NCBI RefSeq assembly: GCF_018324205.1
Contig: NZ_AP023356.1
Span: 992,001-1,056,000, forward strand
Direction of reading: 5' to 3'
DNA length: 64,000 bases
Origin: Actinoplanes ianthinogenes
GTDB lineage: Bacteria > Actinomycetota > Actinomycetes > Mycobacteriales > Micromonosporaceae
A program made the position numbers and the translations under genes. A model generated the notes under the pieces. It did no database searches, was not told the origin of the DNA, and saw nothing but the letters and a program-made list of their open reading frames with translations. Position 1 is the stretch's first letter, and each line of letters opens with the position of its first letter. Positions 57,522 through 62,531 of the stretch are shown here, in pieces.

Positions 57522-59708
57522 GTGTCGGAGTTCGGAAGCAGGCTGCGTGAGTTACGGCGGGCCGCGGGCCTGACCATGGAACAGCTCGCCGAGTCGTCCG
57601 GGGTCAGCGCCCGCGCGATCAGCGACATGGAGCGCGGGCACAGCCGGGTGCCTCAGGCCCGCACGCTCGCCGCCCTGACCGACGTCCTCGGCCCGGGCCT
57701 GAAGGACACCGCTCGCCCCGGGCTGTGTGAGCCGCCCCGCGCGATCAACGACTTCGTCGGTCGCGCCGACGAGCTCGACCGACTGCGCCGGCACGCCCTC
57801 GCCGGCACCGGACAGGCCCCGGTCGCCGTCGTGCACGGGCAGCCGGGCCTGGGCAAGACCGCGCTGGCCGTGCGGTTCGCCGACCAGGTGCGCGACGACT
57901 ACCCGGGCGGCCGGTTCTATCTGGACCTGCGCGGCACCGACCCGGAGCCGATGCCGACCGGCGACGCCCTGGTCCGGCTGCTGCGGGCCCTCGAGGTGAA
58001 CCCCCGCAGGATCGGTGAGACCGACGATGAACGCTCCAGCCAGCTGCGCGCGGTGCTCAGCGACCGCCGCTGCCTGCTGGTGCTGGACAACGCCGGCAGC
58101 GAGGCCCAGGTCCGGCCGCTGCTGCCCGGCGAGGGCGGCAGCCTGGCCGTGGTGACCAGCCGCCGGGTGCTCGCCGGGCTGGAGGGGGTGGAACGGATCG
58201 CCCTGGCCCCGCTCGTCCCCGGCGAGTCGGCCGCGCTGCTGCGGGCGATCGCGGTGCAGGCCGCCGATCCGGGGGTGGTCGCCGAGGTGGAGGCGGTGGC
58301 GCGGTACTGCGCGCACCTGCCGCTGGCGCTGCGGATCGCCGGGACCCGGCTGGCCACCCGGCCGGCCTGGACCGTCGAGCACCTGGTGACCCGGCTCGCC
58401 GACGCCGACCGGCGGCTGGCCACCCTGGCGACCGGCGACATCGGGGTGGCCACCGCGTTCGCCCTGTCGCACGCCCAGCTGTCCAAACCGGCCCGGGAGC
58501 TGTTCCGGCGGCTCGCCCACGTGCCCGGGGTGGACTTCGCGCCGGCGCTGGCCGCGGTGCTCACCGGCGCCCACCCGGACGACGCCGCCGACGGCCTGGA
58601 CGAGCTGGTCGACCTGGGCCTGCTCCAGCAGTCCGGGCCGGACCGTTACCGCTTCCACGACCTGATCCGGCTGTTCGCGCAGGAGCGCCTGCGGATCGAG
58701 GAGCCGGCCGGCACCCGGGCCGCGACCGCCCGGCGGATGGCCTGCTGGCTGCTGGAGACCGCGATCGTGGCCGGTCGCTGGTTCGAGCCCGGGTACGGCT
58801 GCCTGCCCCCGGATTACGCCGGGCCGGTCCCGCTGGCCACCGCCGACGAGGCGGACGCCTGGTTGCAGGCCGAGCGCGACAACTGGCTGGGCGCGCTGCG
58901 CACGGCCGCCCGCGGCGGGCAGCACCAGCTCGTGGTGGACGTCGCCGAGGCGATGCACTGGTACTCGGACAAGTACATACGGGCCGAGTACTGGTACGAC
59001 GTCTACGGCCTGTCCCGGGCCGCCGCCGCGGAACTGCCCGACCGGCGGCAGGAGGTCACCCACATCAACTACTTCTCCTGGGCGGCCACCAACTGCGCGC
59101 GCCGGCCGGACGAGGGCGCCCGGATCGCGATGGACGCCCACCGGGTGGCGGTCGACATCGGCGACGTCAAGGAGCAGGCGTGGGCGCTGCGGTACGCCGG
59201 GGACGCGTGGCGGCTGGCCGGGAACCCGGCGGCGGCGCTGCCGGCGTACCGGCAGTCCGCCGAGCTGGCCGTGGCGGCCGGCGACCACGACGGCTACGTG
59301 CAGTTGCGGCCCGGGATCGCCCGCGCGCTGGCCGAGCTGGGCCGCGACGAGGAGGCGCTCGCCGAGTGCACGGCCGCGCTGGCCGAGATCGAGGCCCTGC
59401 CGGTGGCGCCCCGGCCCGCGCTGGGCGCCCGGCTCAACGCGCGGATCACCATGGCCGCGTGCCTGAGCCGGCTGGGGCGCTGGGCGGAGGCGCTGCGGGT
59501 GGCCGAGGAGAGCCTGCCGGTCGCGGAGGAGTACGGCTACGCCGGCTACCTGGGTGAGGTGCACCTCACCATCGGCCGGGCCCGGATCGGACTGGGTGCC
59601 CCGGAGGCCGCCCGGCCGTCCCTGCATCTGGCCCGTGACCTGCTGCGAGACCTGCCACTCAGCAACCTCCAGGCGCTCACCCGGGAGAGCCTCCAGGCGC
59701 TGTCCTGA
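57522..59708 (+). CDS. XRE-HTH + NB-ARC + TPR regulator (STAND ATPase)
   Basis: 728 residues. An XRE helix-turn-helix ([35 protein letters not shown]) occupies residues 1-65. The NB-ARC ATPase has Walker [16 protein letters not shown], Walker [11 protein letters not shown] and the GxP-like LPLALRIAG, followed by a winged helix ([18 protein letters not shown]) and TPR-like repeats from about residue 440. Related STAND proteins regulate secondary metabolism or development in actinobacteria. GTG 57522 is the start. The divergent protease may be a target. Confidence 0.9.
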
Positions 59709-60637: not shown

Positions 60638-60701
60638 AAATCGGATCGCGGGGAGGCCGGGCGATGGCTAGGCTTCCCCGCAGTCTGCCGAAGGAGTGAG
60701 C

Positions 60702-60758
60702 ATGCGCAAGCACGTGGACACGGTCGCCACCTCGCCGCGAGGGACCGCCGCCGCCTGA
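60702..60758 (+). CDS. 18-residue leader peptide upstream of the MFS exporter
   Basis: ATG 60702 with AAGGAG seven bases upstream encodes MRKHVDTVATSPRGTAAA, then TGA. It is too short to be a typical gene but has a stronger ribosome binding site than most in the window. It ends 54 bp before the exporter's start, and its codons 10-15 contain the first two segments of a set of alternative RNA hairpins. Its probable role is to place ribosomes on the leader. Confidence 0.6.
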   Translation: MRKHVDTVATSPRGTAAA

Positions 60759-60807
60759 TCCTCAGGCCGCCGTCTCCTCGCCGACCGTTTCGTCCCGGCT
60801 TGAGGAG
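60730..60807 (+). promoter_or_regulatory. Candidate translational attenuator (ribosome-mediated)
   Basis: Segment 1 CCTCG (60730-60734) pairs with segment 2 CGAGG (60738-60742). Segment 2, extended to CGAGGGAC (60738-60745), can instead pair with segment 3 GTCTCCTCG (60772-60780) with one bulged base. Segment 3 (60774-60783) can pair with segment 4 (60796-60807), which includes GAGGAG, the exporter's ribosome binding site. A ribosome stalled on early leader codons would cover segment 1, favour 2:3 and free the binding site. Confidence 0.6.
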
Positions 60808-60812
60808 CCATT

Positions 60813-62048
60813 TTGCATGCCCTTCTTCGCCCGCGCCTCGGCGCGGGTTTCACCCGTCTCTGGACCGCCGCGGCGGTCTCCAACCTGGGCGACGGGGTCA
60901 CCATGGTGGCCGGCCCACTCCTGCTCACGACAGTCACCGACGACCCCGCTCTGATCGCCGGCGGCGCGTTCGCCGGCCAGCTCCCCTGGCTGCTGTTCGC
61001 GCTGATCAGCGGCGCTTTCGTGGACCGCCTCGACCGCCACCGCCTGGTCGTCGTGGTCAACCTGCTGCGCGGCGCGGTCCTTGCCGGCCTGGCCGCCGCG
61101 ATCGCCACCGGGCACGTCTCGGTGCCGGTGATCTACCTGGCGTCGTTCCTGCTCGGGGTCGGGGAGACGCTCGCCGACACGGCGTACGGGGCGCTGCTGC
61201 CGGCGGTGGTCGCCCCGGACGATCTGGAGCGGGCCTACTCGCGGCTCGGGGCCACGTTCACGATCGCCAACCAGTTCGCGGCCAAGCCGTTCGGGGCCTG
61301 GCTCTACGGGATCGCCGCGGCGCTGCCGTTCGGGCTGGACGCGGCCAGTTTCGTGGCGGCGGCGGTGCTGATCGCCGGGTTGCCGGCCGTCCCCCGCCCG
61401 GCGACTCCGGAACGTCGCGACAACCTGCGGGCCGACATCGCCGCAGGGTTGCGCTGGCTCTGGCGGCATCGGCTGCTGCGGACCCTGGCGGCGGCGATGG
61501 GCGTGGCGAACATCGCGTTCTGCGCGGCGTTCGCCGTCTTCGTGCTCTACGCCCGGGACCGGCTCGGCCTCTCCGGGGTCGGCTACGGGTTCCTGCTGAC
61601 CACGTTCGCGGTCGGTGGGCTGGCCGGCGCCGGGTTCGCGACCTGGCTGTCGCGCCGCTTCGGCGCCGGGCGGGTGCTCCGCGCCGGCCTGATCGTCGAG
61701 ATCATCACCCACCTGACGCTCGCGGTGACCACGAATCCGCTGGTGGCGGGCGGGATCATCGTGATCTTCGGGGTGCACACGATGGTCTGGGGAGTGCTGG
61801 TCTCGACGATCCGGCAGCGGGCCGTCCCGGACGAGTTGCGGGGCCGGGTCGGCAGCGTCTACGCACTGCTGGAGACCGGCGGCGCGGCCCTCGGGTGGCT
61901 GGTCGGGGCGTTGTTCGCCCAGCTGTGGGGAGTGACCGTGCCGTTCTGGATCGCGGCGTTCGCGATGGTCGCGGTCACCGCCGCGGCCTGGCGTCCGCTC
62001 TCCGAGATCAACCCCGTTTCCGGTACGGCGGCAGCGCCCAGTAGTTGA
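60813..62048 (+). CDS. MFS exporter (MefA/EntS-type, 12 TM)
   Basis: 411 residues with about 12 hydrophobic segments. Features of the MFS_3 branch, which includes macrolide exporters MefA and enterobactin exporter EntS, are VSNLGDGVTMVAGPLLL near the N-terminus, GAFVDRLDRHRLVVVVNLLR, and RQRAVPDELRGRVGSVYAL. The start is TTG 60813 with GAGGAG five bases upstream; the only nearby ATG is in another frame. That binding site can be sequestered in a hairpin. A ribosome-binding antibiotic is the likely inducer and possibly the substrate. Confidence 0.9.
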   Translation: MHALLRPRLGAGFTRLWTAAAVSNLGDGVTMVAGPLLLTTVTDDPALIAGGAFAGQLPWLLFALISGAFVDRLDRHRLVVVVNLLRGAVLAGLAAAIATGHVSVPVIYLASFLLGVGETLADTAYGALLPAVVAPDDLERAYSRLGATFTIANQFAAKPFGAWLYGIAAALPFGLDAASFVAAAVLIAGLPAVPRPATPERRDNLRADIAAGLRWLWRHRLLRTLAAAMGVANIAFCAAFAVFVLYARDRLGLSGVGYGFLLTTFAVGGLAGAGFATWLSRRFGAGRVLRAGLIVEIITHLTLAVTTNPLVAGGIIVIFGVHTMVWGVLVSTIRQRAVPDELRGRVGSVYALLETGGAALGWLVGALFAQLWGVTVPFWIAAFAMVAVTAAAWRPLSEINPVSGTAAAPSS

Positions 62049-62080: not shown

Positions 62081-62090
62081 GCCTCACCGT

Positions 62091-62531
62091 CCGGCTGGCC
62101 GCGACGGCCCTATCCCGAGCCCGGGAAGGGCCACAGAGACCAGCCCGACCACCCCGGCTGGCCGTGACCGCCCTACCCCAAGCCGGGAAAGGGCCACAGA
62201 GACCAGCCCGACCACCCCGGCTGGCCATGACCGCCCTACCCCAAGCCCGCAAAGGGCCACAGAGACCAGCCCGACCACCCCGGCTGGCCGCGACCGCCCT
62301 ACCCCCAGCCCGCAAAGGGCCCCAGACACCAGCCCGACCACCCCGGCTGGCCGTGACCGCCCTACCCCGAACCCGCAAAGGGCCACAGAGACCAGCCCGA
62401 CCACCCCGGCTGGCCGTGACCGCCCTACCCCAAGCCCGCAAAGGGCCACAGAGACCAGCCGGACCACCCGGGCTGGCCGTGACGGCCCTATCCCGAGCCG
62501 GGAAAGGGCCACAGGGACCAGCCCGGTTGGT
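62091..62531. repeat. Seven tandem 63 bp double-hairpin repeats
   Basis: Units start (CCGGCTGGCC or close) at 62091, 62154, 62217, 62280, 62343, 62406 and 62469, exactly 63 bp apart. Each has outer stem GGCTGG/CCAGCC and inner stem GCCCT/AGGGC. The array fills the space between two convergent genes. Because 63 is a multiple of three, both strands show long open frames that are not genes. Confidence 0.9.

Follow-up and report, generated by a model that had tools for sequence, protein, structure and literature searches.

Exporter gene, leader ORF and RNA segments at the locus

The window analysed here is a stretch of 64,000 nucleotides from a genome of 9.9 Mb, and the nearest named orthologues are from Actinoplanes. 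At positions 60813-62048 it carries an MFS exporter gene of 411 amino acids with a TTG start codon; this gene and the leader and RNA features described below all lie on the forward strand. The DHA3-like exporter matched Pfam families MFS_1 (7.7e-34) and MFS_3 (6e-33) as well as TIGR00900 (2.1e-51, under the cut-off), and it stayed below every curated NCBIfam cut-off, scoring 63.7 of 625 bits for Tap and 29.2 of 675 bits for MefA. No sequence relative was found among solved structures. We classified the protein as a putative drug exporter of DHA3 type, with Tap and Mef as weak relatives. Elsewhere in the window, positions 57522-59708, upstream of a hydrolase gene, encode a 728-aa protein with N-terminal HTH, NB-ARC ATPase and TPR domains, which has AfsR/SARP-related repeats and gave weak PADLOC matches through the HTH only. 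A ~62-base unit (CCAGCCCGACCACCCCGGCTGGCCGTGACCGCCCTACCCCAAGCCC...) is repeated imperfectly in tandem, in about six to seven copies, at 62090-62520, between the exporter and a glyoxalase-like gene.

The initial annotation had described a short ORF with an AAGGAG ribosome-binding site ahead of the exporter, followed by three mutually exclusive pairings, and direct reading of the sequence reproduced all of these elements. The leader ORF of 18 codons (MRKHVDTVATSPRGTAAA; 60702-60758) runs from an ATG at 60702 to a TGA at 60756-60758 and is preceded by the Shine-Dalgarno (SD) sequence AAGGAG at 60691-60696; a purine-rich SD-like stretch also precedes the leader in the aligned loci. Segment 1 (CCTCG, 60730-60734) pairs with CGAGG (60738-60742) of segment 2 (CGAGGGAC, 60738-60745, leader codons 13-15) in a stem of 5 bp with a 3-nt loop, CCG. 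Segment 2, whose partner can be segment 1 or 3, also pairs as CGAGG and GAC (60738-60745) with GTC (60772-60774) and CCTCG (60776-60780) of segment 3, giving 8 bp around a single bulged T at 60775. Segment 3 (60772-60783) is the anti-SD; its part 60772-60780 serves segment 2, and its part 60774-60783 (CTCCTCGCCG) pairs over 10 bp with CGGC (60796-60799) and GAGGAG (60802-60807) of segment 4 (CGGCTTGAGGAG, 60796-60807), leaving TT at 60800-60801 bulged. Since GAGGAG at 60802-60807 is the SD of the exporter, stem 3:4 covers it.

Two further pairings were found. Arm A (ACGGTC, 60720-60725), which is leader codons 7-8, can pair with arm M' (GACCGT, 60783-60788); in most relatives M' can also pair with a local arm M (GCGGTC), which has been lost in the window. 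An alternative anti-SD, TCCTCAGGCCG, lies just past the leader stop at 60759-60769 and can form 11 bp, including one G-U, with CGGCTTGAGGA at 60796-60806; it was seen in this genome only. The 141-nt region folded at -67.3 kcal/mol, with a z score of -3.9 against dinucleotide shuffles, and the z score reached -5.0 once the upstream hairpin was included. A scan of the whole window with Rfam gave no match at gathering score.

Conservation of the leader and covariation of its stems

A close orthologue of the exporter was present in 36 of the 68 genomes of the genus and in many more across the wider family. We read 30 loci in the genus, together with 40 further regions and 14 loci in the family. 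The arrangement seen in the window (type 1) was found at 56 loci of the family and at eight loci of Streptosporangiales, in Nonomuraea, Actinomadura, Acrocarpospora and Rhizohabitans, with peptides such as MRIGKVTVAASRRRRLTI and MLRIMVTAGASMQESAAL. In the 56 family loci a predicted translated leader with its own SD precedes the exporter; it starts with ATG in 56/56 loci and spans 11-25 codons (11-19 in all except one), and its stop codon lies 43-90 nt before the exporter SD. The anti-SD is CTCCTCG, the exporter SD GAGGAG is almost invariant, and the exporter start is mostly TTG. This conservation of the layout in relatives rules out a chance arrangement, and as far as the sequences tell, the element is kept across at least two orders of actinobacteria. 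A conserved neighbouring gene was rejected as the cause, the hydrolase lying upstream in just 7 of the 43 loci tested.

The element was tied to this exporter. In a covariance-model search of ~600 genomes of the order and class, it was confined to positions upstream of this exporter or of its decayed copies, and matches with E < 1e-12 all preceded the exporter or its remnants. Weak matches inside other genes resembled chance, and we rejected other genes as members of the same leader family in these ~600 genomes. Strong matches outside the family were L104, from one other family of the order, and Nonomuraea L122, which is the same locus as L174 and has its true leader further upstream. The leader was not evident before distant paralogues of at most 50% identity (L079-L091), and none was seen upstream of the exporters of Prauserella and Actinokineospora. 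At three loci (L100, L101 and L102) an attenuator was still recognisable before truncated or vanished exporter genes, as pseudogene remnants.

A -10-like element, TAGGCT, lies at 60669-60674, 33 nt upstream of the leader ATG. The motif TANNNT occurred at -60 to -22 of the leader ATG in 54/56 loci, compared with 3/56 in a control stretch, indicating that a dedicated promoter serves the leader and the exporter. This element is overlapped by a hairpin at about 60648-60681.

The peptide was conserved at particular positions. Of the 56 loci, 48 kept T7, 53 V8, 47 A10 and 40 V6, whereas positions 4 and 9 were variable; the core of the predicted peptide is V/A/D-T-V-x-A at codons 6-10. Val6 was encoded by GTC, GTG or GTA and Ala10 about equally by GCT and GCC, indicating that both are kept as amino acids. 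Thr7 was ACG in 47/48 and Val8 was GTC in 52/53, and these near-fixed codons suggest a second constraint at the nucleotide level. The residues themselves also matter, since Nonomuraea uses ACC or ACT for Thr7 and L075 retains VTV with the codons ACC GTT. The motif is not a strict stalling motif, because residue 6 is D instead of V in the clade of the window locus and four loci (L029, L033, L026, L013) lack Thr at codon 7. The macrolide arrest motifs IFVI, IAVV and MRLR did not form the core of the leader in the 56 loci, MRLR occurring in L025 only. An amino acid attenuator was rejected, as the leader lacks repeated codons.

The initial annotation had proposed looking for conservation of the leader and covariation of the stems in relatives. 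Both leader and stems were conserved, and covariation was seen, most clearly for stem 2:3, while stem 3:4 was too invariant to test: it hardly varies and its SD is fixed, so that covariation is uninformative there. In a plain MAFFT alignment of the 56 loci, with statistics that ignore kinship, 3:4 was paired in 94%, M:M' in 98% and A:M' in 93%. Taken together, 3:4 and M:M' were 95.8% paired and A:M' and 2:3 were 86.6% paired, compared with 30-55% for slid partners overall and 30-50% for those of the A:M' and 2:3 set. The set of A:M' and 2:3 contained 23 two-sided cells, a number matched by 0 of 500 shuffles, and 2:3 alone had 6 pairs with two-sided changes. When the duplexes were formed with a genome's own partner or with those of other genomes, co-evolution was evident for 2:3 (z -5.9), M:M' (z -3.0) and A:M' (z -2.3), and none of four non-partner control pairs was significant. 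Individual loci illustrated this: in L055 and L058 the leader ACGGCC (V8 to A) was matched by a downstream GGCCGT, in L029 and L033 CAGTC:GACTG replaced CGGTC:GACCG, and in the extended 2:3 stem L032 had ACGTG:CACGT and L036 GCGTG:CACGC. These alignments point to mutually exclusive stems, in which 3:4 would hide the SD and the co-varying 2:3 would compete with it.

Another co-varying hairpin lies inside the exporter ORF at 60829-60848 and begins 16 nt downstream of the first base of the TTG codon. It was present in 64/69 loci, with arms that had changed yet still matched (CCCGCGC:GCGCGGG, CCCGTTG:CAACGGG, CCGCACC:GGTGCGG), and a genome's own arms gave -15.1 kcal/mol versus -12.7 +/- 0.17 kcal/mol for chimeras. 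As guesses, it might aid the weak TTG start or act as a polymerase pause.

A second leader type was found at eleven loci in a sister clade of the exporter (L060-L065, L067-L069, L071, L072), whose loci with names were Micromonospora (L187, L195, L205). Its peptide, for example MRIAPLGTVLVSASPLGTAVS, resembles a drug-sensing leader and has a core GTV or GTM at codons 7-9, and the T-V or T-M pair sits at codons 8-9, one codon later than in type 1. The sequestered SD belongs to a 23-codon mini-ORF with a GTG start (VFPEIPSGRPAAPG...) that ends in ATGA, overlapping the exporter start. L070 and L074, from an Asanoa-like genus, carry a possible third leader form, MTNAFLGTAPAA.

These comparisons also bear on whether stem 3:4 or M:M' could be a terminator, with a stall on the leader letting the polymerase into the exporter. 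Such transcriptional attenuation is what ribosome-mediated control does at actinobacterial ABCF genes such as lmrC (PMC8546547), and TTTT follows segment 4 in 42/56 loci while M:M' is followed by TTTCC in most. However, the T run has another explanation in the TTG start codon that it overlaps, and it is missing in 14/56 loci and after the sequestered SD of the second type. M:M' is absent from the window locus and from L016, L017, L021 and L022, the loop of 3:4 is long, and what all loci share is the pairing over the SD. We therefore regard a terminator switch as unlikely.

Computed effect of ribosome position on SD access

The cost of freeing GAGGAG was calculated with the ribosome at successive leader codons, folding only the RNA beyond its footprint; footprint and energy settings were approximate. 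With the P site at codons 1-7, the median cost over the 56 loci was 6.7-7.6 kcal/mol; it rose to 8.4 at codon 8 and 9.5 at codon 9, and reached 10-10.8 at later codons. The window locus gave 5.7-6.3 kcal/mol for codons 1-6, rising to 9-12 once codon 10 was reached. The step disappeared when the segment-2 stretch was shuffled, the mean over 16 loci being 4.1 kcal/mol for real sequences and 0.45 for shuffled ones, and in the window 5.2 versus -0.6 kcal/mol (0/20). The switch was weak or unclear in L012, L024 and L041 in the shuffle test, and in L162 and L200.

In this calculation, the position of the ribosome on the leader would decide access to the SD, and the conserved peptide core sits at the predicted edge of the switch, with the break at codons 8-9. 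The step implies that the exporter would be turned on by stalling at any position as far as about codon 8. Stalling had been placed at codons 6-9 by the initial annotation, close to the computed end of the ON range at codons 8-9. Without a ribosome the window RNA was already fairly open (3.8 kcal/mol), indicating that the OFF state needs a translating ribosome. Inhibitors acting at the start codon would also be expected to trip the switch, and the RNA alone would not specify the drug. For the second leader type the computed switch was placed at codons 10-12, a delay of two to three codons relative to type 1; sensor and switch thus shift in the same direction, which supports the stalling model.

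Because stalling at any codon from 1 to 8 would suffice for the RNA switch, the leader might sense slow decoding in general, such as amino acid shortage or any translation stress, instead of a particular drug and peptide. WblC attenuation can be triggered by amino acid starvation as well as by many ribosome-targeting drugs (PMC12421871). The present leader, however, has no run of a single amino acid, T7, V8 and A10 are kept while residues 4 and 9 are free, and the downstream gene is an exporter and not a biosynthetic or general stress gene, so we find this explanation rather doubtful. That the leader is conserved merely for translational coupling or reinitiation, with no stalling signal, appears very improbable: the mini-ORF of the second type does overlap the exporter start, but the type-1 leader stop is far from the exporter SD for reinitiation, and conserved competing stems and a codon-dependent switch would be needless.

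Proposed mechanism and relation to known systems

From the layout and its conservation, the covariation seen in stem 2:3 and in arms A and M, and the computed switch position, we interpret the locus, with a probability of about 0.82, as a translational attenuator of the cmlA/ermC kind whose leader peptide senses a drug. Transcripts from the promoter with its -10 element at 60669 would have a short 5' UTR. When no drug is present, ribosomes would traverse the leader and, on nearing its stop codon, cover segment 2; segment 3 would then pair with segment 4 and hide the exporter SD (OFF). A ribosome-bound antibiotic would stall the ribosome with its P site at or before about codon 8, leaving segment 2 free to capture segment 3, which would open the SD and allow exporter synthesis (ON). 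The signal would be a translation inhibitor; the likeliest type is one that blocks elongation at the peptidyl-transferase centre or within the exit tunnel while codon 7 or 8 occupies the P site. Control would be exerted mainly at the level of translation, and the exporter presumably pumps the inducing drug; it may then be a resistance gene, as the initial annotation had proposed.

An extension of this attenuator model, which we put forward tentatively, is that the leader does double duty. Codons 7-8 would both encode the sensed T-V and supply the RNA arm by which GACCGT, ahead of the exporter SD, is captured. The switch would then read an untranslated leader as well as a stalled ribosome and be OFF only under free leader translation, with the intra-exporter hairpin timing the polymerase or helping the TTG start.

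By analogy, the closest systems in mechanism would be cmlA and ermC-type genes. ErmAL1 and ErmCL arrest near codon 8-9, and the stall predicted here is near codon 8. The erm genes of the ermC and ermA type share the four-segment logic of 1:2, 2:3 and 3:4 pairings; their target, however, is a methyltransferase and not an exporter, and the present leader lacks IFVI and IAVV. Inducible erm leaders encode peptides of 8-20 aa (PMC4335068). In cmlA, an integron-borne chloramphenicol exporter of the MFS controlled by translational attenuation, a short leader ORF and alternate stem-loops likewise hide the SD, and a drug-induced stall opens it (PMC8876359). The cmlA leader has 9 aa and a peptide unrelated to the V-T-V-x-A core, whereas the present locus adds the A/M' arm pair, the TTG start and the hairpin inside the ORF, and its element is chromosomal and long kept in actinobacteria. 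In mef(E)/mel of streptococci a leader peptide also controls an MFS exporter of the broad DHA3 group, but that system relies on a Rho-independent terminator and has the peptide MTASMRLR (PMC4335068). The lmrC, tiaA, are5sc and wblC leaders of Streptomyces are, like the present one, actinobacterial uORFs sensing ribosome-targeting drugs (PMC8546547, PMC12421871); they differ in targeting ABCF or regulator genes, mostly through terminator switches, and in their unrelated peptides. No compared system has the present peptide, arms or exporter, and we found no description of this leader or element in the open-access literature, to which the search was confined.

The exporter is chromosomal and long conserved in antibiotic-producing actinobacteria, including Actinoplanes, Micromonospora, Salinispora, Nonomuraea, Actinomadura and others, and it is probably switched on by ribosome-targeting compounds. 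Its leader peptide is a new candidate stalling sequence, and the element could be used as a sensor for what these bacteria perceive as a translation inhibitor.
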